A stretch of DNA of 53,374 nt, taken from assembly GCF_014174215.1 (NCBI RefSeq), contig NZ_JABEQL010000028.1:1-53374 (forward strand). Reading direction: 5' to 3'. The position numbers and the translations under genes were made by a program. The stretch comes from Gluconacetobacter tumulicola (GTDB lineage: Bacteria > Pseudomonadota > Alphaproteobacteria > Acetobacterales > Acetobacteraceae). Of this stretch, positions 863 through 20,394 are shown piece by piece (position 1 is the stretch's first letter; every line of letters starts with the position of its first letter). The notes below the pieces were generated by a model. It ran no database searches, was not told where the DNA came from, and was given only the letters and a program-made list of their open reading frames with translations.

Positions 863-1804
863 TCACGGTTCCACCCTGTCTCCCGCAGGCGACACGCCGA
901 AAACCTCGCGATAGGCACGGGAAAAGCTCGACCGGCTTTCGAAGCCGGTCGCGGCGGCGATTTCGGTCACCATCAGATCGGTCTCGCGTAGCATGGTGCG
1001 TGCCTTGGCCAGGCGGAGCGTACGGTGATGCGCTGCTATGCCCCAGCCGAAAGCATGGTGGAACATCCGCTCCAGATGCCGTTCGGAACAGCAGGCGATC
1101 GCGGCCAGTTCTCCGGCGCCCAGACGGCGATCGGTGGTCCGTTCCATCAATGCCACCACACGCGCCAGTCGCCGATGATGCGCCACCGAGCGTGCGGGAA
1201 GCGGGACTTTCTGCGCTGCACCGGGGCTGCGGATCGTCGTATGGATGAATTGTTCCGATACCCGTCGCGCGAAGCCGGCGCCACGCAGGCCGGCAATGCG
1301 CGCCAGCATCAGGTCGATCGAGGCCGTGCCGCCCGCGCCGGTGAAAATGGCGCCGTGATCCTCGAACAATTCCTCCGATGCGGTCCAGTCGGGAAAGGCC
1401 TCGACAAAGGCGGGGCGGGCTTCCCAATGCATCGTCATCGGCACATCGCGGCCCAGTCCCGCCCGTGCCAGCAGAAAAGCCCCCGTATCAATTCCCCCCA
1501 TCTGCGCGCCGCGCCGCGCCAGGGCGCGCAGCGTCCGGTCGTGCGTGCACGCCAGTCCCGCCAGCGGGGAGAAACCGGCGCAGATCACAAGCCAGTCCAG
1601 CGGCGGCGCGTCGGCCAGCCTTCCGGCCGTTTCCAACCGCATCGCATTGGACGCCTCGACCGGTCCGCCATCCAGCGAGAACACGTCCCAGCGATACAAC
1701 GCCTGCCCTGCAAGACGGTTGGCCACACGCAGCGGCTCCGCCGCGCAGAGGAAACCTAGGGCTGAAAAGCGGGGTACGAGCAGGAAGCCGATGCGGCATG
1801 TCAT
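863..1804 (-). CDS. GlxA/CdhR-type AraC-family transcriptional regulator
   Basis: A 313-residue protein. The N-terminal half (about 1-190) is a DJ-1/PfpI glutamine-amidotransferase-like domain starting [18 protein letters not shown]. The C-terminal 100 residues are an AraC helix-turn-helix pair ending [19 protein letters not shown]. This is the architecture of CdhR and GbdR, which sense carnitine or betaine in Pseudomonas. It is transcribed away from the carnitine dehydrogenase operon starting at 1936, with 131 bp between, so it very likely activates that operon in response to carnitine. The start at 1804 is chosen because the amidotransferase-like fold begins there; upstream codons in the frame do not look like protein. 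The regulatory role is inference from position and family. Confidence 0.85.
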
Positions 1805-1935
1805 GGGGCCGACGATATCGTGGCGGAAAATGCAACGCAAAGGGCAGAAATGGTCACGCACGCTCCCTGCGCCCCGCGCGACACTCGGTGCGAGGCAGTA
1901 ACGAGACCTGTCGGCCGACACGAGGGCGAATCCGC

Positions 1936-2826
1936 ATGAAAACCAGTCTGTTCATTACCTGCGCGGTCACGGGAGCCGGCGATACGGCGGCCAACCATCC
2001 CGATCTTCCCATCACGCCCCGGCAGATCGCCGAGGCGGCGATCGACGCGGCCAAGGCCGGCGCTGCTGTGGCGCATATTCATGTGCGCGATCCCGAAACG
2101 GGCAAGGCGGCACGCGACGTCGCGCTTTATCGCGAGGTCGTGGAGCGCATCCGCGATGCGGATACCGACGTGATCATCAACCTGACGGCCGGAATGGGCG
2201 GGGATCTGGTGCTGGGCAGTGGCGAAACCCCGTTGCCGCCCAACGCCGCGCAGACGGACATGATCGGCCCGACCGAACGCCTGGCCCATGTGGCAGAATT
2301 GCTGCCCGAGATCTGCACGCTGGATTGCGGGACGATGAATTTCTCGCTGGGCGACTATATCATGGTCAACACGCCGTCGATCCTGCGTGAGATGGCGCGG
2401 CAGGTGCAGGCGCTGGGCGTGCGGCCGGAACTGGAAGTGTTCGATACCGGCCATCTGGTATTCGCGAAACAGATGCTCAAGGAAGGGCTGCTGGACGCGC
2501 CGCTGATGATCCAGCTTTGCATGGGCGTGCCCTATGGGGCGCCCAATGATGTCCTGACACTGCAGGCGATGATCAATGCGTTGCCGGATTGCATCTACAG
2601 CATGTTCTCGCTCGGCCGCTTCCAGTTGCCCTATGTCGGGCTGGCGCCGATGGTCGGCGCGAACATCCGGGTGGGCCTGGAGGACAATCTCTATCTCTCG
2701 CGTGGCAAGCTGGCCAGCAATGCCCAACTGGTCGAACGGGCGGCGACAATCCTGACTGCGATGAATGTCGAAATCATGGGACCGCAGGCGGTGCGTGACA
2801 TGCTGAAACTGACGAAGCGGGGCTGA
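1936..2826 (+). CDS. Beta-keto acid cleavage enzyme (BKACE, DUF849), probable 3-dehydrocarnitine:acetyl-CoA trimethylamine transferase
   Basis: A 296-residue TIM-barrel protein of the BKACE (DUF849/Kce) family. The zinc-binding [11 protein letters not shown] motif (His47, His49) is visible, as is the family's [12 protein letters not shown] block. The immediate 3' neighbour is an L-carnitine dehydrogenase (4-bp gap), so the likely reaction is 3-dehydrocarnitine plus acetyl-CoA to betainyl-CoA plus acetoacetate, in the cytoplasm. The family covers many beta-keto acids, and the substrate here rests on the neighbour. The start at 1936 gives the canonical N-terminus ([17 protein letters not shown]) and follows a weak GAGGG site. 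It heads a three-gene operon divergent from the CdhR-like regulator. Confidence 0.88.
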
Positions 2827-2830
2827 GACG

Positions 2831-4330
2831 ATGACCGGAGAGGCTTTTACCCCGAAACGCTGCGGGCTGGTCGGCGGCGGCGTGATCGGTGCCGGCTGGG
2901 CCGCGCGCTTCGTGCTGAACGGTCATGACGCCGTGCTGTACGATCCCAGCTCGGATTCCCGCGCCCGTGCCGAGGCCATCCTGACCATGGCGCGCGCGGC
3001 CTGGGCCCGGCTGATGCCCGGTGCCCTGCCGCCGGAAGGGCGGCTGCTGATCGCCGCGACGCTGGATGAGGCGTTGGACGACGCAGCATTCGTGCAGGAA
3101 AGCCTGCCGGAAATCGAGACGCTGAAATGCGATGTGCTGGGCCGTATCGACGCGCTGCTCCCGGCCTCCGTGCCGATCGCGTCCTCGACCTCTGGCCTGC
3201 TGCCCACGCGGCTTCAGGCCGGGCTGCGCCATCCCGAACGCTTCGTGGTGGGCCATCCGTTCAATCCCGTCTATCTATTGCCGCTGGTGGAAATCTGCGG
3301 CGGCGCGCAGACATCGGATGAAACGAAGGAAACGGTCGCGGCATTCTATCGTGCTATCGGCATGCAGGTTCTGCATGTGCGCAAGGAAGTGGACGGCTTC
3401 ATCGCCGACCGCCTGCTGGAGGCCCTGTGGCGCGAAGGATTGTGGCTGATCGAGGAAGGCGTCGCGACGACGGCGGAACTGGACGACGCGATCCGCTACG
3501 GTGCCGGTCTGCGCTGGTCCTTCATGGGCACGTTCCTGACCTATCGCTTGGCCGGCGGCGATGCGGGGATGCGGCATTTCCTGGCCCAGTTCGGCCCGGC
3601 GCTGAAACTGCCCTGGACCAAGCTGGTCGCCCCGGAACTGACCGACGCGCTGATCGACCGCGTCGCCAGCCAGTCGGACGAACAGGCCGGCGGCGTAACG
3701 GTGCGTGCGCTGGAGGGGCTGCGCGATGAGGCGCTGGTCAAGATCATCCGCGCGCTGGCCACGGTCGGCCCAGAGGGCTACGCGGCCGGCGCGACGCTGA
3801 ACGCCTTCATCGCCCGCAACGCCGGCAAGGCGACGGACGAAGGGACGGTGGCGGCGGACGGTACCCTAACAAGCTGGCATGGCACGGTATCGCCGGACTG
3901 GATCGATTATAACGGCCATATGACCGAGCATCGCTATCTTCAGGTTTTCGGCGAGGCGACGGATAATGTCCTGGCGGTCATCGGTGCCGGGCGGGATTAT
4001 GTGGCGGCCGGGCATAGTTTCTACACGGTCGAAACCCATCTGCGGCATCTGGGCCAGGCGCATGACGGCATGGCGATCACGGTCCGGACGCACATTCTGG
4101 ATGCCGATGCCAAGCGCCTGCATCTGTTCCATACGCTGACGAAGGCCGGCGACGACGCGCCACTGGCCACGGCGGAACATATGCTGGTCCATGTCGATGC
4201 GGTGCAGGGACGCAGCGCGCTGATCCCCGAAAGCGTCGCCACGGCCATCGCCGCGCTGCGCGCGGCGCAAAGCGCGCTGCCGATCCCCGAGGCGGCGGGG
4301 CGCGCCGTTGTCATGCCGCGCCGGCCATGA
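2831..4330 (+). CDS. lcdH: L-carnitine dehydrogenase fused to a hot-dog thioesterase
   Basis: A 499-residue bifunctional enzyme. Residues about 8-185 are a 3-hydroxyacyl-CoA-dehydrogenase-type NAD domain with GGGVIGAGWA, and the catalytic GHPFNPVYLLPLVE motif follows. Residues about 190-290 form the helical C-domain. After a linker, residues about 348-480 are a hot-dog thioesterase beginning WHGTVSPDWIDYNGHMTEH. The fusion matches known L-carnitine dehydrogenase/betainyl-CoA thioesterase proteins. The first half oxidises L-carnitine to 3-dehydrocarnitine. The second would hydrolyse the betainyl-CoA made by the upstream BKACE to glycine betaine, so three steps sit in two adjacent genes. It starts 4 bp after BKACE and its stop overlaps the next gene. 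The usual stand-alone dehydrogenase is about 320 residues. Confidence 0.9.
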   Translation: MTGEAFTPKRCGLVGGGVIGAGWAARFVLNGHDAVLYDPSSDSRARAEAILTMARAAWARLMPGALPPEGRLLIAATLDEALDDAAFVQESLPEIETLKCDVLGRIDALLPASVPIASSTSGLLPTRLQAGLRHPERFVVGHPFNPVYLLPLVEICGGAQTSDETKETVAAFYRAIGMQVLHVRKEVDGFIADRLLEALWREGLWLIEEGVATTAELDDAIRYGAGLRWSFMGTFLTYRLAGGDAGMRHFLAQFGPALKLPWTKLVAPELTDALIDRVASQSDEQAGGVTVRALEGLRDEALVKIIRALATVGPEGYAAGATLNAFIARNAGKATDEGTVAADGTLTSWHGTVSPDWIDYNGHMTEHRYLQVFGEATDNVLAVIGAGRDYVAAGHSFYTVETHLRHLGQAHDGMAITVRTHILDADAKRLHLFHTLTKAGDDAPLATAEHMLVHVDAVQGRSALIPESVATAIAALRAAQSALPIPEAAGRAVVMPRRP

Positions 4331-5327: not shown

Positions 5328-6293
5328 TCATGCGCCCCGTTGCAACATTGCCTCCACCGCCGCCCGACCGGATCGCCCGTCGATCGTCACGACATCATCC
5401 AGCCATCCCGCCCATGCAGCGGGATGATCGTGCAGCCACTGCCAGGCAACGGTGGACGGCTTGATCCGATCCCGCTGGATCGCCTGCATCATCGTGTTTT
5501 CGTCCTGGACGGTGAAGTGAATGCGCGCCAGCAGGCGGGTGGCATTCGGGCAGGTAGCATCGTAGCCAGCCCGGATCACGGTATGGACTGACGCCCCGCC
5601 ATCCGGCCCGAATACGGCTTCGCCCCCGGTCAGATAGCGGATCGGGAAACGCATGTTCATTGGATGCGGCTCCCATCCCAGGAACACGATCGGCCGATGG
5701 CTCTGCACGTCGCGGTCCAGTTGCGACAGCATGCCCTGTTCGCTGCTTTCCACCAGACGGAAACGCCCCAGGTCGAACTGGTTGTCGCGGATCATGGCGA
5801 GGACCAGCGCATTGCCGTCATTGCCGGCTTCCAGCCCGAAGATCATGTAGCCCAGCCACCGGCCCCAGGAGGCGATATCCTTGTAATCGTGCAAGCCGGC
5901 ATTCCAGACGTAATCAGGTACCGCCAGCGTGTAATGCGCGCCGGACAGATTGGTCGCGATGCGCTGGACACTGCCGTCGGCCAGGAAGGGCGCGATCGCC
6001 AGATGACCGGACGGCTCCCAATTGCTGAGGAATGCATCGACCCGATGGTCGCGCATGGCGACATAGGTCATCGTCAGCGTCAGCATCGGCTCCTGCGGCC
6101 TGTATCCCAGCGCGTCGAACAGTCGCACGGCAACGGCGGTGACGGCCTCGGCATCCGTCCAGCCGACATCGGAAAAGCGGATCGGCGCGCAGGACGGCGC
6201 GTCCATGGCCGGCGGCGCGGCGGCGCGGGCGCCTGCCCCCGGCGCTGCGCAGAGGAGCGCCAGACCGGCGAAGAGCGCGCGCACCGGCCGCAT
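5328..6293 (-). CDS. ChoX-like choline/betaine ABC transporter substrate-binding protein
   Basis: A 321-residue periplasmic protein of the OpuAC/ProX type, close in pattern to ChoX. A signal peptide (about 1-25, ending AGARAAA) is followed by FSDVGWTDAEAVTAVA, then WEPSGHLAI, TNLSGAHYTLAVPDY, GLEAGNDGNALVL, VESSEQGML and FLGWEPHPMN. The aromatic residues in DVGW, in the WEP stretch and in FLGWEPHPM correspond to the Trp/Tyr box that cages a quaternary ammonium head group. No permease or ATPase partner is in the window, so it must use a transporter encoded elsewhere or act as a scavenging protein. Its ATG overlaps the stop of the choline sulfatase (TGATG), so the two are translationally coupled. 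Confidence 0.85.
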   Translation of the reverse strand: MRPVRALFAGLALLCAAPGAGARAAAPPAMDAPSCAPIRFSDVGWTDAEAVTAVAVRLFDALGYRPQEPMLTLTMTYVAMRDHRVDAFLSNWEPSGHLAIAPFLADGSVQRIATNLSGAHYTLAVPDYVWNAGLHDYKDIASWGRWLGYMIFGLEAGNDGNALVLAMIRDNQFDLGRFRLVESSEQGMLSQLDRDVQSHRPIVFLGWEPHPMNMRFPIRYLTGGEAVFGPDGGASVHTVIRAGYDATCPNATRLLARIHFTVQDENTMMQAIQRDRIKPSTVAWQWLHDHPAAWAGWLDDVVTIDGRSGRAAVEAMLQRGA

Positions 6294-7798
6294 CAGATCT
6301 GCCCCGGTGCCGGAAACCGCGCGCGGCGTTCGAGAATTTCCAGATCGATGTGACTGCGGATATAGAGCGTGCGCGCATCGCGCGTCGGCTGATGATCCCA
6401 GGCGGACGGTGCGCCCTGGCGCATGGCCGCGGCAACCAGCAGGCGACGCTGTTGCGAGGCCAGCACCTCGCGATGCAGTTCCGCCAGATCCCATCGGGTA
6501 TCGATTTCGGCCAGGAAGGCACGGCACGTCGCATGACAGGCCGGTTCCGTCGCCAGATTGCGGAGTTCCTGCGGATCGGCCCGCAGATCGTACAACTGGT
6601 CCGGATCGGCCGCACTGTGCACGAATTTCCAGCGTCCGCGCCGGATCATCACCATCGGTGCGATCGCGCCTTCGGCGGTATATTCTCCCAGTGCCAGCCC
6701 GTCATCGTCGTCGCCCAGGCAGTAGGGTAGCAGCGAGCGCCCGTCGCCGGGCAGGAGATCGTCCTGACCGGCCAGATCGCACAATGTGGGCAGCAGGTCG
6801 AGCAGCGATACGCATGCGCCTACCCGATGGGGCGCGAAACGGCCCGGCGCACTGATGATCATCGGGATACGGCTGGCATCGTCGAAGAAGTTCATCTTGT
6901 ACCACTGCCCGCGCTCGCCCAGCATCTCGCCGTGATCGGCGATCACGATCACGATCGTGTCGCGATCCAGCCCCGTTTCGTGCAACGTGCCCAGAATCTG
7001 GCCGAACGCATCGTCGACGAACGAGCAGGCCCCGTAATAGGCATGGCGGGCGGCGCGGACCTGCGCTTCGGTCACCGGCTGCAGGTCCATGCCGTTCACG
7101 TGGCGCAGACGGGCGGTATGCGGATCGTCCGCCTGCGCCGGAATCGCCGGCATGTCGATCTCTTCATCCGTATAGCGGCTCCACCATGGATCGGAGATGG
7201 TGAACGGATCGTGCGGGTGGGTCAGTGAAACCACCATCGCGAAGGGGCGGCGATCCGGATCGCGGGCCAGATCATAGAGTTTCTGCCGCGCGCTGAACGT
7301 CACTTCCTCATCGAAGTCGATCTGGTTGGTCCGCACGCAACGCCCGGCCTCGGTCACCGAATTCATGGTGTGGTACCATTCCTGCCGCTCGTCGAACCGC
7401 GTCCAGTCGGGGGTCCAGTTGAAATCGGCGGGGTAGATGTCGGTCGTCAGCCGTGTTTCGAACCCGTGCAACTGGTCCGGGCCGCAGAAATGCATCTTGC
7501 CGGTCAGGATCGTCTCATAACCGGCCAGACGCAGATGGTGGGCGAAAGTCGGTGTCTGGGAAGGGAATTCGGCGGCGTTGTCATAGGCCCCGATATGCGA
7601 GGCCAGCCGGCCGCTCATGAACACCGCGCGAGACGGCGCGCAGATCGGCACGTTGCAATAGGCATTCTCGAACACCACGCCGCGCTCGGCCAATGCGTCC
7701 AGATGCGGCGTCTTCGCCACCCGGCCGCCATAGGTGGGCAGGGCGGATGCCTTCAACTGGTCGGCCATCAGGATCAGGATATCGGGACGATCGCGCAT
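6293..7798 (-). CDS. betC: Choline sulfatase
   Basis: A 501-residue type I sulfatase. The formylglycine signature CAPSR lies at residues 53-57 (Cys53 would be the modified catalytic residue). The N-terminal metal site lies in ILILMADQLKASALPTYGG, and GKMHFCGPDQLHGF and HGEMLGERGQWYKM match BetC. The C-terminal tail (DLEILERRARFPAPG) is typical of choline sulfatases. It converts choline-O-sulfate to choline and sulfate. No signal peptide is visible, so it is cytoplasmic, as in Sinorhizobium. The start at 7798 gives the usual BetC N-terminus (MRDRPDILIL). The downstream ChoX-like gene is coupled by a one-base overlap. No betA or betB is in the window. Confidence 0.92.
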   Translation of the reverse strand: MRDRPDILILMADQLKASALPTYGGRVAKTPHLDALAERGVVFENAYCNVPICAPSRAVFMSGRLASHIGAYDNAAEFPSQTPTFAHHLRLAGYETILTGKMHFCGPDQLHGFETRLTTDIYPADFNWTPDWTRFDERQEWYHTMNSVTEAGRCVRTNQIDFDEEVTFSARQKLYDLARDPDRRPFAMVVSLTHPHDPFTISDPWWSRYTDEEIDMPAIPAQADDPHTARLRHVNGMDLQPVTEAQVRAARHAYYGACSFVDDAFGQILGTLHETGLDRDTIVIVIADHGEMLGERGQWYKMNFFDDASRIPMIISAPGRFAPHRVGACVSLLDLLPTLCDLAGQDDLLPGDGRSLLPYCLGDDDDGLALGEYTAEGAIAPMVMIRRGRWKFVHSAADPDQLYDLRADPQELRNLATEPACHATCRAFLAEIDTRWDLAELHREVLASQQRRLLVAAAMRQGAPSAWDHQPTRDARTLYIRSHIDLEILERRARFPAPGQI

Positions 7799-7901
7799 GT
7801 TCTGACGGGTCCATGAGGTTGGAAATTGCCGCAAGGGTTTCGCCCTGTCCGTCGCCAAAGGACGGTCGCCCTCTGGACATCGTGAACAACGCGAAAGGGG
7901 A

Positions 7902-7925
7902 GGAAAGGGGCTGTTGCCTCTTTCC
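7902..7925. terminator. Hairpin between CocE-type hydrolase and betC
   Basis: An imperfect hairpin (ggaaagg, loop, cctctttcc) sits in the 183-bp gap between the CocE-type gene (ends 7982) and betC (starts 7798). It could end transcripts of the upstream hydrolase so that betC uses its own promoter. It lacks a long T-run, so the call is tentative. Confidence 0.35.
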
Positions 7926-7981
7926 GGAGCGCGAGGGAGAAACCCGCCACTGCCCATGCAGTGTTCGAAGGTGCATGCGCA

Positions 7982-10132
7982 TCAGACGAAATCGCGTGCC
8001 GCGCGTCGTGTCCAGTGGCGGTCGCACACGATTGCGCCATCGTGCGTCGCCAGGAAACGTTCGTCATAGAGAAAATGGCTGGCCGTCGAACGCAGGCGCA
8101 CTTCGGCGGCGAGCGTCATCTTTTGACCGGCGATGAGGTAGGAGTTGGTATAGCGGGTGCGCATCTCGGCGCTGTTCGGATCGTCCTCGCGCACGGTACG
8201 CCGGATCCAGAACGAACTGCCCAGGACCTCACCCGTGGCGGGCACGTCGGTCACATCTTCCTGGCGCGACCCGGCTTCCAGCACAAACAGGCGCTGGCCG
8301 GCTGGGCCGCTGACCGTCACGCCATGCAGACGATCGCGGAACGGTGCGGGGGACGCGAAACCCGCATAACGTCCGACCAGCGTCTCGAATGGCGGCGATG
8401 TCGTGACCCCGGCCGGGGCAGCGGGCAATTCCACCGAGGAGGCGCCGGTGACCAGGGTCAATGTCACCCGCTCCGGCGACGGCCATGTGACCGGCCACCA
8501 GGCCTCGCTGATCGCGATGCGTATCCGGCTGCCGGCAGCGAACCGATGGCAGGCGAACAGACCACGCAGCACCACGTCATAGGCTCGGCCGGGCTCCAGC
8601 GGCGTGGGCGCGGCATCGTCCGCGCGATGGGTCAGGTTCAGAACGGCGTTGCTGACCGGGTCGGATGTACCGTCCGGATGCACCATGTTGAGTCGGACGA
8701 AGAGTTTTGTCACCGGCCTGTCGCTGCGCACGCGCAGGCGAAAGACGGGCTGGCCGAGCAGATCGAAATCGGCTCCAAGCGGCGCGCTGTCGAAGGTCAG
8801 CGACAGCGCGTCGTCTCCCGATTGTTCGCGCCAGCAGGTCGCGGGATCGCCGCTGCTGTAGGTCGCGGGCGTCGCGAAGCCGATCGCCTGGTTGGCGACA
8901 TGACGTCGTTCGGTCGGCGGGGCGGCGGATGCATCCAGCGTGCCGTCATTCAGCACCAGACGCCGCCATGCCTGATCCGGCGGCGGCCAGGACGGGCTGG
9001 CGATCCATGCCCCTGGCGTATCCTGGGGAAATGTCGCGGCCGGTGGGGCATCCTCGCGGAATGCCCATAATACCGGGCCGTCCATTACGCCATTCTGCTC
9101 GCCCAACAGCCAGCGACGCCAGAAACGTGCCTCCAGCGGCAGCCAGTCCACCCCCGGTCCCGGCACCCCGTTCGCCACGAAGGCAGGTGTGCCGTGATGA
9201 CCGGGCGGATCGGGATAGCCCGGCCATTTATGGGTCCAGGGACCGATCAAGGCCTTTTGTGGACAGTGCGGTGCACGCTCCATCATCCGCGAGGCGGCGT
9301 TCACGTAACTGTCCAATTGCCCGGCGACGTGAAACATCGCGCAGTTGAGGCGGCTGTAATCGGTGATCGAGCCATAGCGCCATGTCGCGTCGAGGCGCTG
9401 ATGCGCGCCCCAGACGATGGCGATCGGCATCACGGCCGCCAGACGCTGCCCCCACAGTGCTCGCCAGCGCGGCCCGACCACGCGCGGATCGGGTGGACCG
9501 CGCAGGATAACCTGCCACTCCATCCCCCAATCGAGTTGGGCCGCCAGCAGGCATCCGCCGCGATAATGGATATCGTCCAGATAGCGCTGTTCGGTGCCGC
9601 AGGCCGAAACGATGGCGCGCAGCGCGGGCGGCGCCTTGGCGGCGGCCTGTAGACCCGAAAACGAGCCATAGGAAATGCCACGCATGCCGACGTGGCCGTT
9701 GCACCAGGCCTGCCGCGCCGTCCAGGCGATCACTTCCAGCGCATCGTCCTGTTCCGGCGGCAGATATTCATCAAGGATCACCCCTTCAGAATCGCCGGAG
9801 CCCCGGATATCGACGCGCAGCAACCCGATCCCGCTCGCGGCCAGCGCCGGACCGGCTATATCGTCGCGATACCGGTAACCGTCCCGTTTCCGATAGGGAA
9901 GATATTCGATCACGACCCCCGTCGGCCGGCTGTCGGCATCGGCGGGCAGGAACAGGCGCGCGGCCAGCCGGACGCCATCCGGCATCGGGATCCAGAGATT
10001 TTCCACCACTCTGACCCGAGGGTCGTCCAGGGCGACGGCAGGTTGTCCGGCGGCCATTACCCGGCTGCCGTCGAGCATGGAAGAACCAGTTGCCAGAGCG
10101 CCCAGAAATGCACGACGTCGCAGAAAGACCAT
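7982..10132 (-). CDS. CocE/NonD-family (S15) hydrolase, exported
   Basis: 716 residues. The N-terminus MVFLRRRAFLGALATGSSML looks like a Tat-type or Sec signal peptide. The S15 catalytic domain contains LPYRKRDGYRYRD, VDIRGSGDSEG and the nucleophile elbow GMRGISYGSFSG (Ser154). The C-terminal half is the jelly-roll domain of X-Pro dipeptidyl-peptidases and cocaine esterase, with an extra tail of about 60 residues. The family cleaves esters or N-terminal dipeptides. In this cluster, hydrolysis of a choline or carnitine ester in the periplasm is a reasonable guess, but no residue fixes the substrate. It starts 6 bp after the damaged TonB-dependent receptor ends, so the two were once one transcript. 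Confidence 0.82.
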   Translation of the reverse strand: MVFLRRRAFLGALATGSSMLDGSRVMAAGQPAVALDDPRVRVVENLWIPMPDGVRLAARLFLPADADSRPTGVVIEYLPYRKRDGYRYRDDIAGPALAASGIGLLRVDIRGSGDSEGVILDEYLPPEQDDALEVIAWTARQAWCNGHVGMRGISYGSFSGLQAAAKAPPALRAIVSACGTEQRYLDDIHYRGGCLLAAQLDWGMEWQVILRGPPDPRVVGPRWRALWGQRLAAVMPIAIVWGAHQRLDATWRYGSITDYSRLNCAMFHVAGQLDSYVNAASRMMERAPHCPQKALIGPWTHKWPGYPDPPGHHGTPAFVANGVPGPGVDWLPLEARFWRRWLLGEQNGVMDGPVLWAFREDAPPAATFPQDTPGAWIASPSWPPPDQAWRRLVLNDGTLDASAAPPTERRHVANQAIGFATPATYSSGDPATCWREQSGDDALSLTFDSAPLGADFDLLGQPVFRLRVRSDRPVTKLFVRLNMVHPDGTSDPVSNAVLNLTHRADDAAPTPLEPGRAYDVVLRGLFACHRFAAGSRIRIAISEAWWPVTWPSPERVTLTLVTGASSVELPAAPAGVTTSPPFETLVGRYAGFASPAPFRDRLHGVTVSGPAGQRLFVLEAGSRQEDVTDVPATGEVLGSSFWIRRTVREDDPNSAEMRTRYTNSYLIAGQKMTLAAEVRLRSTASHFLYDERFLATHDGAIVCDRHWTRRAARDFV

Positions 10133-12922: not shown

Positions 12923-14353
12923 CTACGCTCCTGACGCAACCGTGACTCCTTCAACACCCCCCCCCTTCTGGCGAAAACGCCAGATCCGGGCGGAAAACAG
13001 AAGCAGCAGCAGCATGTAGGCGGCGGAGCCCAGCCCGACATTGAGCGAGACGGCCTGTGCCAATGCATCGTCCGGGGCGACAAAGCGGGCGGTTTCGGCG
13101 ATCAGGGTCGGTGCGAACGCACCCGGCAGCGCCAGGCAGAGGAATTGCAGGGCGAAGACACGTCCCATGAAGCGGGCTGGCGTGATGGCGGCGACCGCGA
13201 CGTAATAGGAGGCGTTGATCGTGCCCTGAAGTGTGTATATCGCGCCGATCAGGGTAAAGACCATCTGATGGCTGGACACGTGCAGGATCAGCGTCTGGAT
13301 CAGGGCCATGAGTGCGCTGGCAACGATGGTGACGTGCAGGGCCGCGTCCGGCCCGGTGCGGCGGGTGACGACGTCTACCAGCAGGCCGCCGCCCAGTGTC
13401 CCCGCCAGACTGAGCGACATGCCCAGCAGCCCGATCATGCGGCCAATCTCGGCCTCGCTGATGCCCCAGCTTTCATGCAGTACGGCGGGCGTCCACAGAA
13501 AGCCGGCATTGGGGATGGACCAGACGATGCTGTAGGCGAGGGAAGGCCAGTAGAGCCACCAGGTGCGGCGCAGGAAGGCCACGGTCTCGCGCAGGCTGGC
13601 GGTGGCGGTAGGGTCGGCGGTCGACCGGTCGCGCTTCGGTTCGGCGATCAGCAGCACCAGTGCGGTCAGCGGCAATGTGCTCAGGCCAGGCAAGGCCAGC
13701 ACGATCTGCCAGGGGCGGAAGGTGCCGATAATCGGCCAATGGGCGAACACGCCCGCATCGGCGGCGCGGATCAGGCGACCGCTGACATAGAAGCTGACGC
13801 CGCTTCCCAGGGAATAGAAGCCCCAATAAAGGCTGAAGGGCAGGCCCCGGCGTTCCGGCGGGAACAGGTCACGCAGGATCGATTGCGAGGCGGGTTTCAG
13901 CACGCCGTCCGCCACCGCACCGCCCGCGCGTGCGCCGAACAGCGGCCAGAACCCGCGCGCCAGACCGGTCAGCATCGACATCGTGGCCCAGATGCAGCCG
14001 GTGCCGAACAGCAGGCGTTTGCGGCTGAAGCGATCGACGAGAATGCCGGCGGGAATCAGGATGCAACTCGACACCGCCATGTTGGCGAAGCCGAGCAGGA
14101 AACTGACTTCCACCCGCGTCAGCGCCAGATCGCGTCGGATGCGTTCGATGACCAGACTCAATCCGCCCTGATCGACGGAATCCAGCGCCGCGAACAGGCA
14201 TAATACCGCCAGGGTGGTGGCCGGACGATCCGCGATGCGGCGCCAGAGCGGGGGCGCGCGGGTCGCGGAGGACGGCGCGGTGTCCGTCAGGATCTTGAGC
14301 CCGACGTCAAGGCGTGCCTGCCTGCGCGACCAGGATCGGGGCGTGTCGTGCAC
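12923..14353 (-). CDS. MFS transporter
   Basis: 476 residues with about 12 hydrophobic segments. The loop 2-3 motif of the major facilitator superfamily reads ILVDRFSRKRLL. The first helix (TTLAVLCLFAALDSVDQGGLS) and the central loop (about 225-255, charged) are typical. It is probably a proton symporter in the inner membrane. Its place next to carnitine, choline-sulfate and betaine genes suggests uptake of one of these or of gamma-butyrobetaine, but the family does not prove it. The first 30 residues before the first helix are long, and the real start may lie 10-20 codons inside. It is on the same strand as the dioxygenase operon upstream (gap 119 bp). Confidence 0.82.
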   Translation of the reverse strand: MHDTPRSWSRRQARLDVGLKILTDTAPSSATRAPPLWRRIADRPATTLAVLCLFAALDSVDQGGLSLVIERIRRDLALTRVEVSFLLGFANMAVSSCILIPAGILVDRFSRKRLLFGTGCIWATMSMLTGLARGFWPLFGARAGGAVADGVLKPASQSILRDLFPPERRGLPFSLYWGFYSLGSGVSFYVSGRLIRAADAGVFAHWPIIGTFRPWQIVLALPGLSTLPLTALVLLIAEPKRDRSTADPTATASLRETVAFLRRTWWLYWPSLAYSIVWSIPNAGFLWTPAVLHESWGISEAEIGRMIGLLGMSLSLAGTLGGGLLVDVVTRRTGPDAALHVTIVASALMALIQTLILHVSSHQMVFTLIGAIYTLQGTINASYYVAVAAITPARFMGRVFALQFLCLALPGAFAPTLIAETARFVAPDDALAQAVSLNVGLGSAAYMLLLLLFSARIWRFRQKGGGVEGVTVASGA

Positions 14354-14472: not shown

Positions 14473-15720
14473 CTATCCTGTCTGGCGTGAGAGGATGCGG
14501 ATGCGCGAGCGGACCTCGTCGCGATCGACATACACGCCCTGCAGATGGCGTGCGCCGCTGCGCGGATCGAAGGCACGTCGTGCATGCATCATCCGGCGAT
14601 TGTCGAACACCCACATGTCGCCCGGTGTCAGCCGTCGTTCGATACGGAAGCGTGCATCGCGCGTCATGGCCTGGAATTGGCGCAGGGCGGCATAGAGGGC
14701 GGGCATCTGCTCGGTGGGTGCGTCGATCGGTCCGCGCAGGAAATTGGCGAAGCGAATCTCGCTCACCGCGCCTTCGGTATCCAGCGCGATCAGTGGCGCG
14801 GACCAGCGGTAATCGGTGCGGTCGTCGCGGTTCCAACTGGGCAGCGGCATCGTGGTGAGCATCGCGAAATGTGCCGGATAATCCGCACGCATCGCCTGGG
14901 CGATGGCGAAGCCATCGACGAAGATGCTCTCGCCGCCGGTGGCGTCGTTCACCAGGCAATGCAGGAATTGATAGCCCGGCTGCAATTCGCGGGTCGGCAG
15001 GTCGGTATGCGGCGGCAGGTTGACGGCGGTATAGGCCGCACTGTCAGGCGTGGGTTTCGAGCGGACATCGAAGACACGGCCGAAATTGGTCTCCCGTACA
15101 TGGGAAATGCGCTCGGCGGGACCGAGCAGAGCGTTCGGTTCGGTTGGAACATCGCGGACCAGCGTCAGCCCGGAATCGCGCAACGCGACGAGCCAGTCCA
15201 GCAGCCCGGCCGGATCGGTCATGATCTGGTCATGGGTGAAAACTCCCAGCCCATCGGCATGCTCCGCGCCCCAGATGAAGAGCTTGGGTGTCTGCGCCCG
15301 ACGCTCGGCGCGGGAGGCGGGGTCCGTGGCGTGGGCGCGCAGCCAGCCGGCGGGATAGGCGCTCGCATGGCCGTCCGACCACTCGACCTGCAGGGTCTGG
15401 CCTTCCGCCGGATCGCTGACGACGCTGTGGGCCGGCATGTCGGAGATGCGTACGGCGGCGGCGGCCAGCGTGTCAGGCGCATCAACGATCTCGAAAACCT
15501 GTTCTCGGGTCAGGGGAAGAACGCATTCGTTGCATGGACAATTGTCACGCAGGAAAAACGGGTTGAACTGCGTCCGGCGGCGGTCATCCCAGACCAGCGT
15601 GACCGCCCCATCCGTCGTTTCAGCGTCGGTCAGGGTGCGTTCGGTGCGGAATGGACGCCAATCGACGACGATGGGAACAGAATCCGTCATGGTGGGGGAC
15701 AATGTGAGGGTGATCGTCAT
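14473..15720 (-). CDS. Gamma-butyrobetaine-hydroxylase-like Fe(II)/2-oxoglutarate dioxygenase
   Basis: 415 residues. The N-terminal domain (about 30-135) has the zinc-site cysteines CPCNEC (Cys61, Cys63, Cys66) and His118, as in BBOX. The C-terminal double-stranded beta-helix carries His238 and Asp240 (HTDLPTRELQPG), the distal His379 (FDNRRMMHARRAF), and Arg391 (GARHLQGVYVD) for 2-oxoglutarate. All catalytic residues of gamma-butyrobetaine dioxygenase are present, so the likely reaction is gamma-butyrobetaine plus O2 and 2-oxoglutarate to L-carnitine. Its product would feed the carnitine dehydrogenase 10 kb away. The start at 15720 overlaps the HD gene stop (ATGA), which indicates coupling; Met11 is an alternative. 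Trimethyllysine hydroxylase is a less likely reading. Confidence 0.85.
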   Translation of the reverse strand: MTITLTLSPTMTDSVPIVVDWRPFRTERTLTDAETTDGAVTLVWDDRRRTQFNPFFLRDNCPCNECVLPLTREQVFEIVDAPDTLAAAAVRISDMPAHSVVSDPAEGQTLQVEWSDGHASAYPAGWLRAHATDPASRAERRAQTPKLFIWGAEHADGLGVFTHDQIMTDPAGLLDWLVALRDSGLTLVRDVPTEPNALLGPAERISHVRETNFGRVFDVRSKPTPDSAAYTAVNLPPHTDLPTRELQPGYQFLHCLVNDATGGESIFVDGFAIAQAMRADYPAHFAMLTTMPLPSWNRDDRTDYRWSAPLIALDTEGAVSEIRFANFLRGPIDAPTEQMPALYAALRQFQAMTRDARFRIERRLTPGDMWVFDNRRMMHARRAFDPRSGARHLQGVYVDRDEVRSRIRILSRQTG

Positions 15721-16283
15721 GGGCGGAGTCTCGTCTTGGTCTGTGGCCCCCAGGCGGGACGGGTGAAGATGGCGTCAAGGGCGGGCATGAAGGCGTCGAT
15801 CGGCATCGTGTCGTAATCGGGATCGAACGCTTTCTGATCCCAGTGATCGGTGAACAGCGCGGTACGCGCGAAGGCCGGATGCCCGCGATAGGCGTCGCGG
15901 GCATGGCGGTCGCCCCCGAAATATTGTGCGTAGAAATAGCCCTGGAATTCTTCGTGATGATGCACCAACCACGCGTTTTCGGGCGAGACATAAGGCGCGA
16001 TCATGGTGGCGGCGAATGGGCCGTGATTGGTTGGTGCCAGCACGTCGCCGATATCGTGGATCAGCGCGCAGACCACGGTTTCCTCGTCGGCCTGGGCACG
16101 AAAGGCGCGGGTTGCGGTTTGCAGGCTATGTTCATATCGATCGACTGGATAGCCCAGGTCCAGATGCTTCAGGGCCTGTAGCGCGGCGACGATTTCGCCG
16201 ACCAGTCCTTGCTGGAAACGTTCAAATTTTTCGCCGATCGGTTTCCAGTCCTCGGCGGTGGCCTCGTCGAAACTGCGGAACAT
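15717..16283 (-). CDS. HD-domain protein, putative mixed-valent di-iron oxygenase (TmpB/PhnZ-like)
   Basis: 188 residues, one HD domain. Candidate metal ligands in order are His52 (YEHSLQTA), His76-Asp77 (ALIHDIGD), His87 (TNHGPFA), one of His108-110 (LVHHHEEF) and Asp149 (DHWDQKAF). This spacing agrees with HD-type di-iron oxygenases such as PhnZ and TmpB, and Asp149 matches the conserved C-terminal Asp of PhnZ. The Tyr/Glu pair that PhnZ uses seven to ten residues before the first His is not conserved in the same way. Its neighbours are two BBOX-like dioxygenases, the same company TmpB keeps. A C-P or C-C bond-cleaving oxygenase acting on a hydroxylated trimethylammonium compound is my inference. 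A phosphohydrolase is the conservative alternative. Confidence 0.75.
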   Translation of the reverse strand: MFRSFDEATAEDWKPIGEKFERFQQGLVGEIVAALQALKHLDLGYPVDRYEHSLQTATRAFRAQADEETVVCALIHDIGDVLAPTNHGPFAATMIAPYVSPENAWLVHHHEEFQGYFYAQYFGGDRHARDAYRGHPAFARTALFTDHWDQKAFDPDYDTMPIDAFMPALDAIFTRPAWGPQTKTRLRP

Positions 16284-16351
16284 CCTTGTCTCCTGGCTTG
16301 GAGTTTTCTCTTCTTTTTCTGAAGAAAAGGCAGAGAAACGATTTTCGTTTG

Positions 16352-16378
16352 TTTATATATCGGAATGATATGGTGCAA
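16352..16378 (-). promoter_or_regulatory. Possible promoter for the HD/BBOX pair
   Basis: The 146-bp gap between the second dioxygenase (ends 16430) and the HD gene (starts 16283) is unusually AT-rich for this locus. On the minus strand TTGCAC (16378-16373) is followed after 15 bp by TATAAA (16357-16352). An imperfect hairpin (ggcactctttttaaaaagcacc) lies just after the dioxygenase stop and may partly end that transcript. Short spacing makes the promoter call weak. Confidence 0.3.
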
Positions 16379-16429
16379 AGGCTCCTGAACGGATAAAAGT
16401 TTCCTGGTGCTTTTTAAAAAGAGTGCCGT

Positions 16430-17572
16430 CTATTCATTCAATCCGGCCCGCCGGCTGAACACGATGTCACGATCCATGTAGCATTGCCGCATATGCCGGC
16501 TGCCGGTTTCCAGGCGATATCCGGCCCGACCGTGCAGCAGGCGGTAATTGTCCATCATCAGCAATTCGCCGGGTGCCAGCTTGAAGCGCAGGGTCAGCGG
16601 CGATTCCGGACGGATCAGCGTCCAGAGAGCGCGGCGTGCCCGGTAGTACCGGTCCAGCCGGACGGCGGGCAGGGCGTAGATCATTTCCGTGCGGTTCGAA
16701 TAACGCACTTGGCGGACCCGGCCCGACCGGTCGCAGGCGATCAGCGGCGCGTGATGCTCCAATAGCGTGTTGTCGTCTCGGTAGCGGAACAGGATGTCCG
16801 TTGTCGCCAGCGTTTCGAAGGCGTCGGGATCGGTGACCCGCAGATGTTCGGCAGCCTGGAACCCGTCGACCAGCGTCGATTCCCCGCCAGTCGCATCGTT
16901 CGTCAGACAATGCAGGAGGATATAGCCGGGCGTCGGATTGCGATAGGGATTGTCGCTATGGGGCTCCAGATGCCGGGGGGTCATCGTCAGATCGTAGGCA
17001 TTGGCGATGGCGCGCACATCGGCCAGGCCGCCCCAATTGGTGGTGCGGATTGGACCGATCAGGCGAGCGAAGTCCAGCGCCCCGTCCATGGTTGCCGGCA
17101 CGTTGCGCACGATGGCGAAACCGTGACGTGCCAGATGCGTCAGGAACAGGGCCAGAGGTGGATTGGCCCGCATTCCTGTGACGTTGCAGGCCTGCATGGC
17201 TTGGAAGTCGACCGGTTCCGGCGGGACGAAACCGCCGTCCCACAAGACGGGTGTAATGTCCGGACTGGGCGGGAAGAGCGCATCTTGGCAGCGATCCGGC
17301 AGACGGGTTTCGAACCCGTCGGAAAAGCGCAATATGCCATCCGGCGTGGCCGACAACAGGGCAAGGTCTGTGGGCAGATCGGCGGCCTCGATCAGGCGCT
17401 GTCCGGTCACGGGATCGAGGACGCGCGGATCGGGCAGCCGCTCGCGCAGCCAGAGCGGATGGAGCAGCCGCGATCGACCGTCGGACAGCGTAACCCGCAG
17501 CCCGCCGGCATCGGCGCGGAAGCACGTACCAGCATCGGAGACGGGAAAAGCGATGGCGCTGTCGGCGGACAT
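16430..17572 (-). CDS. TmpA-like Fe(II)/2-oxoglutarate dioxygenase of the BBOX family
   Basis: 380 residues. It shares the BBOX layout: an N-terminal domain (1-115), then the oxygenase fold with His205 and Asp207 (HSDNPYRNPTPG), distal His347 (DNYRLLHGRAGY) and Arg359 (GSRHMRQCYMDRD). Unlike its neighbour at 14473, it lacks the N-terminal zinc cysteines and has HSDNPY in place of HTDLPT. It is therefore a distinct subfamily, closer in pattern to TmpA, which hydroxylates 2-trimethylaminoethylphosphonate. It is the first gene of the run dioxygenase, HD protein, dioxygenase. The trimethylammonium substrate is suggested by family and context. The exact substrate is unknown. It is divergent from a GlxA-type regulator (115-bp gap). 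Confidence 0.8.
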   Translation of the reverse strand: MSADSAIAFPVSDAGTCFRADAGGLRVTLSDGRSRLLHPLWLRERLPDPRVLDPVTGQRLIEAADLPTDLALLSATPDGILRFSDGFETRLPDRCQDALFPPSPDITPVLWDGGFVPPEPVDFQAMQACNVTGMRANPPLALFLTHLARHGFAIVRNVPATMDGALDFARLIGPIRTTNWGGLADVRAIANAYDLTMTPRHLEPHSDNPYRNPTPGYILLHCLTNDATGGESTLVDGFQAAEHLRVTDPDAFETLATTDILFRYRDDNTLLEHHAPLIACDRSGRVRQVRYSNRTEMIYALPAVRLDRYYRARRALWTLIRPESPLTLRFKLAPGELLMMDNYRLLHGRAGYRLETGSRHMRQCYMDRDIVFSRRAGLNE

Positions 17573-17687
17573 GGCGTTGAGCCCCAGATCATTATGGAAT
17601 CAGACTATATTGACGCACACCGAGTATGGTGCCTGAATTCGACATTCTGATGATCATTTTCGCCATGTTCGGGGTGAAGGAGGGGCG
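17573..17687. promoter_or_regulatory. Divergent control region between dioxygenase and GlxA-type regulator
   Basis: This 115-bp gap must hold promoters for both directions. It contains an imperfect palindrome near 17612-17629 (gcacaccgagtatggtgc). The repeated words gatcatta...gaatcag and ctgatgatcatt face each other as partial inverted repeats. Either could be the binding site of the adjacent regulator. A strong ribosome binding site (gaaggagg) precedes the rightward gene. Confidence 0.4.
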
Positions 17688-18692
17688 ATGCGGGCCGAGG
17701 AAGATGCCTTCTGGCGGCAGCGCTGGAAACATGCCGGCGCACATGTGGGGTTTTTGCTGCTGCCGCATTTTTCGATGCTGGAACTGTCCTGCGCGATCGA
17801 TCTGTTGCGTATTGCCCGGCGTCTGGGCAGCCGGGATTATCGCTGGACGCTGCTGTCGGCCGATGGCGCGCGGGTGACGGCATCGAATGGAATCGCACTC
17901 GATGTCGCGGCTGGACTGCGCGACGGGGTGGTGCCGGATATCCTGTTCGCCATGGCGAGCTACGAACCGCTCCAGGCCGTGACGCCGGCGATTGAACACG
18001 GGCTGCGGCGCATGGCGCGACATGGCGTGCTGCTGGGGGCGGTGGATACCGGGGTGTTCGTGCTTGCCCGTGCAGGCCTGCTGGCCGGACGCAGCGTGAC
18101 GCTGCATTGGGAATCCCAGGCGGCCTTCATCGAGTCTTTCCCCGATATTTCCGTCACCTCGGGATTATATGTCTTCGATCGCGACCGGCTGACTGGGGCG
18201 GGAGGGGCTGCGGTGATCGACATGATGCTGTTCTTCATCGCGTTGCAGCATGACGACGATCTGGCCCGGGCAGTGGCCGAGCAGATCGTGCATCCGCCGA
18301 TGCGTGCTGGCGAGGCGGCGCAGCGCCTTTCGGTTGCCGGCCGCTATGCCCTGCGCGACCAGCGGATCGCACGGGCGGTGACGCTGATGGAGGTGCATGT
18401 CGAGCATCCGCTGACGATGGAGGGACTCGCCAGGGCGGTCGGCCTCTCGCAACGGCAGTTCGAACGTCTATGTCACATGCATCTTGGCCGTTCGGGCAAG
18501 AGCTTCTATCTGACGTTACGCTTGGAACGCGCGCGCCAGATGCTGACGGATAGCGGGCTGGACGTGGCTGGCGCCGCGCTGGCCACGGGCTTTGAAAATG
18601 CCGCACATTTCTCGCGCCTGTTTCGACGGGTGTTCGGTGTTACGCCCACACAGCTTCGCGCCACGGGGATGCGAATCGACCCAAAATGGTAA
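17688..18692 (+). CDS. Second GlxA/CdhR-type AraC-family regulator
   Basis: 334 residues. A DJ-1/PfpI-like sensor domain (about 18-205, GFLLLPHFSMLELSCAIDLLR, then LGAVDTGVFVLARAG) is followed by an AraC DNA-binding domain (about 230-325, AALATGFENAAHFSRLFRRVFG). It is a paralogue of the regulator at 863-1804, and the two bracket the whole trimethylammonium gene set. It diverges from the TmpA-like dioxygenase, so it likely controls the dioxygenase/HD operon. GbdR and SouR in Pseudomonas are family members that sense betaine and sarcosine. The start at 17688 is backed by gaaggagg nine bases upstream. Confidence 0.85.
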   Translation: MRAEEDAFWRQRWKHAGAHVGFLLLPHFSMLELSCAIDLLRIARRLGSRDYRWTLLSADGARVTASNGIALDVAAGLRDGVVPDILFAMASYEPLQAVTPAIEHGLRRMARHGVLLGAVDTGVFVLARAGLLAGRSVTLHWESQAAFIESFPDISVTSGLYVFDRDRLTGAGGAAVIDMMLFFIALQHDDDLARAVAEQIVHPPMRAGEAAQRLSVAGRYALRDQRIARAVTLMEVHVEHPLTMEGLARAVGLSQRQFERLCHMHLGRSGKSFYLTLRLERARQMLTDSGLDVAGAALATGFENAAHFSRLFRRVFGVTPTQLRATGMRIDPKW

Positions 18693-19183
18693 CGCTAAAG
18701 CACGTTTTGGATCGTGGTTGATGACATCAGGACAATGTAGCGGGACAGGGCCCGGCGGGCCGGCCCGGTCGTTCACGCGGCATCCGGTAAGGCATTGCCG
18801 CGTGCGGCGGACTGGGCGGTGAACCAAGCGGGCGGAGGGGATCTGGCGGTGCAAAGGACTCAAGGTTCGTCAGGGATAGCGTAGACACGGTCGGATCTGG
18901 CTTATCTATGAAAATTTGGTCGCTTCGTGCGACGAAGGAGCGTTGAGCCGGGGTAGCCACCTCGGATCAACGAGAAGGGGACGGGTCGGGATATGACAGG
19001 CCATGATGGGCCGTGTCATACCAACTTGGGAAGAGATTGACTCTGTTTTGGATTCCATTGGGAACCGAACTCTGATTCGATAGAGGTGGTTTTGGCTCGG
19101 ATTGGAGCGATGGGATAGGTAGGGCGGTCAGGATCACGCGAGTGGATCATACGGCGTCGGACCTCAGGGCGTCGTCGTCGAGA
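18693..19183. other. Non-coding stretch left of the IS3 element
   Basis: About 490 bp without a believable gene. It holds hairpin-prone sequence, for example cgttga...tcaacg around 18941-18973 and gcggcat...gccgc near 18778-18803. A lower-GC part (19020-19130) looks like worn mobile-element DNA. The N-terminal part of the integrase whose end lies at 20425 is not visible here. The sequence left of the IS therefore does not restore the integrase, and a deletion accompanied or followed the insertion. Confidence 0.4.
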
Positions 19184-19246: not shown

Positions 19247-19537
19247 ATGACGAGACGGAAGTTCAGCCGTGAGTTCAAGATCGAGGCTGTAAGACTGGTG
19301 ACGGATCGGGGTGTAGCGGTGGCGCAGGCTGGGCGGGACCTCGACGTTGCGGAGAGCGTGTTGCGGCGGTGGATACGGGAACTGACCGCCACCCCAACTG
19401 CAGCGTTTCCCGGGAATGGGCAGATGCGGGCCGATCTGGCCGAGATTGCAGCCCTGAAGAAAGAGGTCGCCCGGCTCCGGGCGGAGCGTGACATCCTGAA
19501 GAAAGCGGCAGCTTTTTTCGCGCGCGAGGCAATGTGA
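19247..19537 (+). CDS. IS3-family transposase OrfA
   Basis: 96 residues. The helix-turn-helix part (MTRRKFSREFKIEAVRLV, then AQAGRDLDVAESVLRRWIREL) is followed by a leucine-zipper-like helix (EIAALKKEVARLRAERDILKKAAAFFA). It binds the element ends and, by frameshifting with orfB, should give the OrfAB transposase. A run of six T bases at about 19514 (gcttttttcg), close to the frame overlap, is a candidate slip site. The ATG at 19247 follows a ggaga site; GTG at 19241 is an alternative start. Confidence 0.9.
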   Translation: MTRRKFSREFKIEAVRLVTDRGVAVAQAGRDLDVAESVLRRWIRELTATPTAAFPGNGQMRADLAEIAALKKEVARLRAERDILKKAAAFFAREAM

Positions 19538-20394
19538 AGTTCGCTTTCATTGCCAGACACCGCCACATCTGGCCAGTCAGTTGGCTTTGCGAGGTGCTGG
19601 AGGTCTCGCGTTCTGGCTTCCACGCCTGGCTCAACCGCCCGATCAGTATCCCCGCGATCCACGACGCCAAGCTTGTTACGGCGATCGAGACGAGTTTCAG
19701 GACCAGCGACCGAACCTATGGCGCGCGCCGCGTCTGGCGCGATGTTCTTGAGGAAGGACTTGCCTGCGGGCTTCACCGGATCGAACGGCTGATGCGGCTC
19801 AATGCCTTGAGGGCGCGGCCCAGACGCCGTGGAAAACCCAAGGACGATGGTGAACGATCGATCATTGCTGACAATATCCTGGATCGGGATTTTCAGGCCG
19901 ATCGGCCAAATCAGAAATGGCTGGCCGACTTCACCTACATCTGGACTGCCGAAGGATGGCTCTACGTTGCCGTCGTGCTGGACTTGTTTTCACGGTGTGC
20001 GGTCGGTTGGTCCATGAAGGCCGACCGCGATGCATCATTGGTGATGGATGCGCTGATGATGGCGATCTGGCGAAGGGGAAAGACCGACGCGTTGCTCCAC
20101 CATTCGGACCAGGGATCGCAATATACGAGTGAACAGTTCCAGCAGCTCCTGGCTGACAACGGGATCACCTGCTCGATGAGCCGGGCGGGGAATGTCTGGG
20201 ACAATTCGGCGATGGAGAGCTTCTTCTCATCGCTGAAAACCGAACGGACCGCCCGTAAAGTCTATCGCACCCGAGATGAAGCACGGGCCGACGTCTTCGA
20301 CTACATCGAACGCTTCTACAACCCGCGCAGACGGCATTCAAAATTGGGATACATGAGCCCCATGGAGTTCGAAGCCCGCGCTATGCTAGCTTAA
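19534..20394 (+). CDS. IS3-family transposase OrfB (DDE catalytic part)
   Basis: 286 residues with the rve integrase core. DDE residues are recognisable in WLADFTYIWT (first Asp), LLHHSDQGSQYTS (second Asp) and DNSAMESFFSSLKTE (Glu). The HTH-21 region (FRTSDRTYGARRVW) lies in the N-terminal third. It overlaps orfA by 4 bp in another frame, as usual for IS3. It starts with GTG if translated alone, but frameshifted OrfAB is the likely active product. The frame is full length, so the element may still move. Confidence 0.92.
   Translation: MKFAFIARHRHIWPVSWLCEVLEVSRSGFHAWLNRPISIPAIHDAKLVTAIETSFRTSDRTYGARRVWRDVLEEGLACGLHRIERLMRLNALRARPRRRGKPKDDGERSIIADNILDRDFQADRPNQKWLADFTYIWTAEGWLYVAVVLDLFSRCAVGWSMKADRDASLVMDALMMAIWRRGKTDALLHHSDQGSQYTSEQFQQLLADNGITCSMSRAGNVWDNSAMESFFSSLKTERTARKVYRTRDEARADVFDYIERFYNPRRRHSKLGYMSPMEFEARAMLA

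Follow-up and report, generated by a model that had tools for sequence, protein, structure and literature searches.

A hydroxylase and an HD-domain protein encoded beside a gamma-butyrobetaine dioxygenase in Gluconacetobacter tumulicola: a possible oxidative route from trimethyllysine to carnitine

Pairing of a 2-oxoglutarate (2OG) dependent hydroxylase with an HD-domain oxygenase is known from PhnY/PhnZ, which act on 2-aminoethylphosphonate (2-AEP) and of which PhnZ cleaves a C-P bond, and from TmpA/TmpB (PDB 6NPB, 6NPA), which convert 2-trimethylaminoethylphosphonate (TMAEP) to glycine betaine and phosphate. MIOX, an HD di-iron oxygenase acting on myo-inositol, cuts a C-C bond. These three (MIOX, PhnZ and TmpB) are the HD oxygenases counted in the relevant passages of a 2020 review (PMC8177086). 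Canonical carnitine biosynthesis proceeds from trimethyllysine (TML) through TML hydroxylase (TMLH), 3-hydroxy-TML (HTML) aldolase, 4-trimethylaminobutyraldehyde dehydrogenase (TMABA-DH) and, as the last step, gamma-butyrobetaine dioxygenase (BBOX). A locus of Gluconacetobacter tumulicola has features in common with all of these systems. It lies in a stretch of 53,374 nt (GCF_014174215.1, contig NZ_JABEQL010000028.1, positions 1-53,374 of the forward strand), which was analysed at its full length and is called the window below, and comprises three genes:

16430..17572, minus strand: type I dioxygenase, BBOX/TmpA-like, 380 aa (ORF, profile scores, alignment)
15717..16283, minus strand: HD-domain protein, probable di-iron oxygenase, 188 aa (ORF, profiles, ligand alignment, tree)
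14473..15720, minus strand: BBOX-type gamma-butyrobetaine dioxygenase with zinc-type Cys residues, 415 aa (366.5 bits, cut-off 414.75)

The three open reading frames (ORFs) were found in the order claimed in the original prediction, and the ATGA overlap that it reported between the HD stop codon and the BBOX start codon is present; hydroxylase and HD genes are 146 nt apart. The 415-aa protein stays below the cut-off of TIGR02409, which is still its best-scoring family, and judged by context it is likely a gamma-butyrobetaine dioxygenase. Its earlier description as a zinc-containing enzyme of the BBOX type agrees with the presence of C61, C63 and C66, which we take to be the zinc cysteines of BBOX.

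We tentatively propose, as a reading with somewhat less than an even chance of being right, that the first two proteins convert TML or a valerobetaine-type derivative of it to gamma-butyrobetaine by oxidative C-C cleavage, and that BBOX then makes carnitine. The 380-aa hydroxylase would add an OH group to a trimethylammonium substrate of the TML family, and the HD protein, acting as a di-iron oxygenase of the PhnZ/TmpB/MIOX type, would cut the C-C bond adjoining the carbinol carbon, which would be oxidised to a carboxylate: Me3N+(CH2)3-CH(OH)-X -> Me3N+(CH2)3-COO- (gamma-butyrobetaine). Gamma-butyrobetaine would be turned into carnitine by BBOX, and carnitine into glycine betaine by the carnitine 3-dehydrogenase (CDH) and the beta-keto acid cleavage enzyme (BKACE) of the same window. 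Two variants of the cleavage can be written as balanced reactions. Either 3-hydroxy-TML would be cut directly (+ O2 = gamma-butyrobetaine + glyoxylate + NH3), or the substrate would be 2-hydroxy-valerobetaine (+ O2 = gamma-butyrobetaine + CO2 + H2O), formed from 3-hydroxy-TML by an aminotransferase, an AruI-like decarboxylase and an aldehyde dehydrogenase (ALDH). The second variant is favoured by the operon order at locus L159 (see below; L and G numbers are our designations for loci and genomes), the first by the bare trio in a genome that has no close AruI. Formation of valerobetaine from TML by bacterial DavB/DavA is described in passages of PMC8976029. As in canonical carnitine biosynthesis, BBOX would catalyse the last step; the difference is that the HD protein would replace the aldolase and the aldehyde dehydrogenase wholly or partly.

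The 380-aa protein has the HSDNPY motif and lacks a Cys cluster, as had been predicted, and the HxD...H facial triad of the 2OG Fe oxygenases of the BBOX superfamily is present (H205, D207 and H347 in the alignment). In an alignment of 178 BBOX-superfamily rows, some of which are one gene fetched twice, the positions of BBOX Y177/W181/N191/Y194 are occupied by W180, A184, D194 and M197. This W-A-D-M pattern is found in 84 rows (type I), which include the window, Halomonadaceae and SAR11 of the L140 type. Six rows read F-F-D-Y (type II: L155 and L156 from SAR11, L158, L164, L032 and L037), and an HD gene adjoins all six. The 15 TmpA-type rows have Y-F-N-Y/F, and the BBOX-type rows mostly F-F-S/N-Y/F. 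Asp in the N191 column thus occurs in 91 of the 178 rows, namely types I and II plus L193, the only protein above the curated cut-off for trimethyllysine dioxygenase (TMLD) in a phylum sample of 398 genomes (299 bits); its source genome, G008, also carries an HD gene. According to passages of PMC7764450, Asp231 of TMLH is the homologue of BBOX Asn191 and is thought to bind the alpha-ammonium group of TML. The Asp in this column in types I and II, as in TMLH, supports the TMLH-type reading.

The HD protein has the metal ligands H52, H76-D77, H87, H110 and D149, which are kept in all 59 rows of its family (window included) and in 14 of 14 TmpB/PhnZ-type rows, so that the full di-iron ligand set of the original prediction is borne out. 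A profile search of the PDB gave PhnZ (5e-8) and TmpB (2e-7), the next match being at 0.44 or worse, and one SAR11 member of the family barely meets the Pfam cut-off for MIOX (25.1 vs 25). With PhnZ and TmpB as the sole PDB relatives below E 0.4 and a SAR11 protein at the MIOX cut-off, the HD protein is probably a di-iron oxygenase, with iron as the predicted metal. Overall similarity to MIOX is weak, and the HDxGH motif is altered to HDIGD in the window protein; the MIOX motif is HDxGK. In a tree of 73 HD rows, drawn without phosphohydrolases, the type I-linked proteins form one clade (99/97) and the type II-linked ones lie on one side of a branch (99/72). The 14 TmpB/PhnZ-type proteins split off on long branches (100/100), which answers the phylogenetic check against TmpB and PhnZ suggested earlier in favour of a separate family, and 28 rows make up a separate wide clade (96/99).

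To find relatives of the pair, an alignment of the window hydroxylase with its L036 homologue was used as query; 118 relatives were confirmed and the best 80 were kept. Since L036 had originally been found through its HD gene, the choice of query was not entirely independent of HD. The HD gene comes immediately after the hydroxylase gene in 72 of the 80 loci, and with automatically chosen starts the two overlap by 4 nt in 63 of these 72. The 80 loci are mostly from Halomonadaceae, with L091/L109 and L095/L116 each on one contig, and are therefore not independent events; the adjacency exceeds chance. The eight remaining loci include one at a contig end (L116) and four from closely related SAR11 genomes, and in all eight genomes an HD gene is present elsewhere (11/11 at E 1e-8, counting three trio genomes). 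The complete trio recurs in Acetobacter conturbans (L064), Ameyamaea chiangmaiensis (L065) and a metagenome-assembled genome (MAG) of Sphingomonadales (L066), with identities to the window proteins of 59-64% (hydroxylase), 70-72% (HD) and 64-71% (BBOX).

Within about 10 kb of the pair, the 80 loci contain genes for BBOX (50), CDH (32) and BKACE (31), at least one of them in 51 loci. These neighbours, together with the trio in three other genomes, support the view that the pair feeds BBOX. Further neighbours are GbdR-type regulators (73), choline-type binding proteins (62), aminotransferases (63), ALDH (35), AruI-like decarboxylases (53, of which 52 directly after HD) and Lys/Arg/Orn-type binding proteins (56). 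A class II aldolase/adducin protein of the PRK07044 type is encoded in 22 of the 80 loci, including L066 and Halomonadaceae loci, and adjoins HD genes from at least two clades (L031, L046, L050, L058, L236, L240).

Other arrangements are found outside type I. In SAR11 loci L155 and L156 the BBOX, CDH and BKACE genes are on one strand and the ALDH, type II and HD genes are divergent; in L155 an acetoacetate-CoA ligase scoring above its cut-off sits between ALDH and the type II gene. An Arctic SAR11 betaine/carnitine island with two BBOX genes, CDH, BKACE, ALDH and a class II aldolase is described in PMC12421898; it differs in that no HD protein is named among the island genes in the passages concerned. 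At L032, the type II hydroxylase and HD genes of a Pseudomonas aeruginosa plasmid (pF045_1) precede those for a choline-type binding protein, a choline dehydrogenase and an ALDH. In an Azospirillaceae MAG (L159) the genes for an aminotransferase, an AruI-like decarboxylase (708 bits, cut-off 500), ALDH and HD are consecutive with short gaps or overlaps, the type I gene of this genome being at a separate locus (L139). A genus designated g16 has a CoA-type operon resembling those for gamma-butyrobetaine or carnitine (L199-L204), with BKACE, HD, CDH, acyl-CoA dehydrogenase, acyl-CoA synthetase-like and crotonobetainyl-CoA-hydratase-like genes in a row, the last with 309.8 bits (cut-off 500), and one g16 genome has a second HD gene at L238. 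At L040 and L157 the HD genes lie a few kb from GbdR-type regulators and, judged by eye, sarcosine-oxidase-like genes are nearby; no TmpA-like gene was found within these two stretches.

The surroundings of the trio in the window are made up of the following genes:

12923..14353, minus strand: MFS transporter, on the downstream side of the BBOX gene and 119 nt from its stop
17688..18692, plus strand: GbdR-type AraC regulator, divergent from the trio (259.7 bits, cut-off 480)
863..1921, minus strand: another GbdR-type regulator, next to the carnitine genes
1942..2826, plus strand: BKACE-type beta-keto acid cleavage enzyme (53% identity to the L036 copy; start assumed)
2831..4330, plus strand: carnitine 3-dehydrogenase (621.7 bits, above the cut-off of 592)
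5328..6527, minus strand: substrate-binding protein of a choline-type ABC transporter (start uncertain; 362.6 bits, cut-off 379)
6293..7957, minus strand: choline sulfatase (751.9 bits, above the cut-off of 433.45)
7982..10132, minus strand: S15/CocE-type hydrolase, with homologues in trio loci L064 and L065

The GbdR-type, BKACE-type, CDH, choline-type binding protein and choline sulfatase genes place the trio in a quaternary-ammonium island, and the CDH and BKACE-type genes, neither of which had been part of the original prediction, make this a carnitine island. The MFS transporter possibly shares an operon with the trio. A TonB-dependent receptor gene looks interrupted, as its plug and barrel parts are split over two minus-strand ORFs (10139-10894 and 11039-12466), and an IS3-type transposase-like ORF was noticed by eye near the island (19534-20394, plus strand). 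Beside the L064 trio (16110-18703) there are a GbcA-like glycine betaine monooxygenase gene (403 bits, cut-off 670) and, by eye, a peptide-transporter-like gene.

Co-occurrence was determined in the phylum sample by Fisher tests, in which the kinship of the genomes was ignored. An HD gene was found in 59 of the 398 genomes (E <= 1e-10) and a CDH-like protein in 65 (E <= 1e-50), the latter in 28 of the 59 HD genomes vs 37 of the 339 others (5e-10). All six genomes with a D-type hydroxylase have an HD gene, vs 53 of the 392 others (8e-6).

Several observations weigh against the proposed TML route. The types I and II hydroxylases reach no more than 148-184 bits against the TMLD model (TIGR02410, cut-off 268.3), the window protein 148.4, which is below several BBOX proteins and sets them apart from the TMLH of the canonical pathway. 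The aromatic cage Y217/W221/Y234 of TMLH is not kept, the window protein having W/A/M and type II F/F/Y at these positions; two cage aromatics are missing from type I (W181 -> A, Y194 -> M). BBOX, CDH and BKACE are all absent from 29 of the 80 stretches, a few of which are short, including all eight from Chromohalobacter. In the g16 genus a D-type hydroxylase was not found in any of the six HD-bearing genomes, even though HD sits in a carnitine operon there, and the wide HD clade of 28 rows is mostly without carnitine or hydroxylase context. Two of the six D-type genomes (G147 and G375) lack a CDH match, which the other four have, and when the comparison is limited to the 33 genomes with any TmpA/BBOX-like match (1e-30) the association with HD is weak, at 6/6 vs 16/27 (p 0.07). 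Finally, no close AruI ortholog was found in the window genome (best 28%), and an HD protein that made the acid directly would leave no need for the ALDH genes seen near several pairs.

One alternative is that the HD protein is a metal lyase or hydrolase, for instance in the role of the 3-hydroxy-TML aldolase, and that the neighbouring ALDH then makes gamma-butyrobetaine. An ALDH gene is found about 4 kb or less from the pair in L155, L156, L164, L158 and L032, 35 of the 80 type I loci contain one at any distance, and its presence would fit the canonical order of hydroxylase, aldolase, dehydrogenase and BBOX given in passages of PMC7764450. However, HD oxygenases are the sole matches below E 0.4 in the set of solved structures, and the pairing of HD with two families of 2OG hydroxylases parallels PhnY/PhnZ and TmpA/TmpB, so that we regard a lyase as quite unlikely. 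A free betaine as the substrate of the hydroxylase is also unlikely, but deserves more weight: delta-valerobetaine would be alpha-hydroxylated and the HD protein would remove C1 as CO2 to give gamma-butyrobetaine, or beta-alanine betaine would be converted to glycine betaine. The closest PDB structure to the hydroxylase is TmpA (E 3e-56), whose substrate is a phosphonate isostere (beta-alanine betaine is the carboxylate isostere of TMAEP); the aminotransferase-AruI-ALDH series would yield valerobetaine ahead of the HD step, and bacterial DavB/DavA form it from TML (see above). HD genes are moreover paired with PhyH-family proteins, presumably alpha-hydroxylases, the PhyH gene being directly before HD in six loci (L207, L209, L210, L214, L216, L222; the label was checked with Pfam for two and rests on similarity for the remainder). 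On the other side, the Asp in the N191 column would be expected to make a substrate with nothing but a carboxylate at that end less favourable.

It could also be argued that the substrate is not trimethylated at all, being arginine or another basic amino acid, and that the carnitine neighbours are incidental. The Halomonadaceae neighbours include a transporter of the basic-amino-acid type, an aminotransferase and an AruI-type decarboxylase, and in the Halomonas operon the AruI-like protein passes its cut-off (766 bits vs 500), whereas the GntC-like aminotransferase (316.9 vs 415) and the Lys/Arg/Orn-type binding protein (219.8 vs 256) do not; the altered cage of type I points the same way. The GbdR-type regulators in 73 and choline-type binding proteins in 62 of the 80 loci speak against it, as do the carnitine genes adjoining the pair in unrelated lineages and the BBOX gene within the trio, and we consider this explanation less probable again than a lyase. 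The organophosphonate route from TMAEP to glycine betaine and phosphate, which the original prediction had put forward, is very improbable and was rejected on residues, curated cut-offs and gene context. TmpA is the best NCBIfam model of the hydroxylase as well as its closest structure, but the score is below the cut-off (NF049936, 329.1 vs 400 bits), and those of the HD protein are far below theirs (TmpB 25.6 vs 300, Phn-HD 36.2 vs 214.6). Asn occupies the N191 position in all 15 TmpA-type rows, where the window hydroxylase has Asp194. In the HD protein D42 and Y45 align with Tyr24 and Glu27 of PhnZ, so that the PhnZ-type Tyr/Glu pair is absent as predicted. The Tyr, Glu, Lys and Arg of window columns 42, 45, 114 and 146 are present in 14/14 TmpB/PhnZ-type proteins vs 8, 0, 0 and 2 of the 59 family rows. 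The conserved Lys and Arg presumably contact the phosphonate in PhnZ. The YxxE motif (Y24/E27; Y30/E33), not kept in the HD family, is described as a substrate loop of PhnZ and TmpB in passages of PMC8177086. TmpA-type genes with a TmpB-type HD of their own form separate pairs in 13 fetched loci, and the neighbours of the window pair are carnitine and not phosphonate genes. What remains of the proposed mirror of TmpA/TmpB is a BBOX-family hydroxylase beside an HD protein that shares all six ligands, in a trimethylammonium context; the proteins themselves are not a TmpA/TmpB pair, and the suggestion that the HD substrate differs from that of TmpB is supported.

The route through TML or its valerobetaine-type derivative thus remains the reading that we prefer. 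No paper on the hydroxylase-HD pair or the HD family was found among the matches listed in the open-licence PMC literature. The logic of a 2OG hydroxylase followed by an HD oxygenase is known; the class of substrate and the bond cleaved would be new. As a wider and more doubtful possibility, the large HD family, to which we found no function assigned, may hold C-C cleaving di-iron oxygenases which, together with TMLH-like or PhyH hydroxylases, would provide a route from TML via gamma-butyrobetaine to glycine betaine in acetic acid bacteria, Halomonadaceae and SAR11, with no need for an HTML aldolase. If the proposal is true, the HD superfamily gains a new class of substrates, with C-C cleavage of trimethylammonium acids, and many genes now labelled HD-domain protein or phosphohydrolase acquire a testable function. 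Trimethyllysine, which we take to be the laminine of brown algae, would then be linked to the turnover of carnitine and glycine betaine in marine and plant-associated bacteria.

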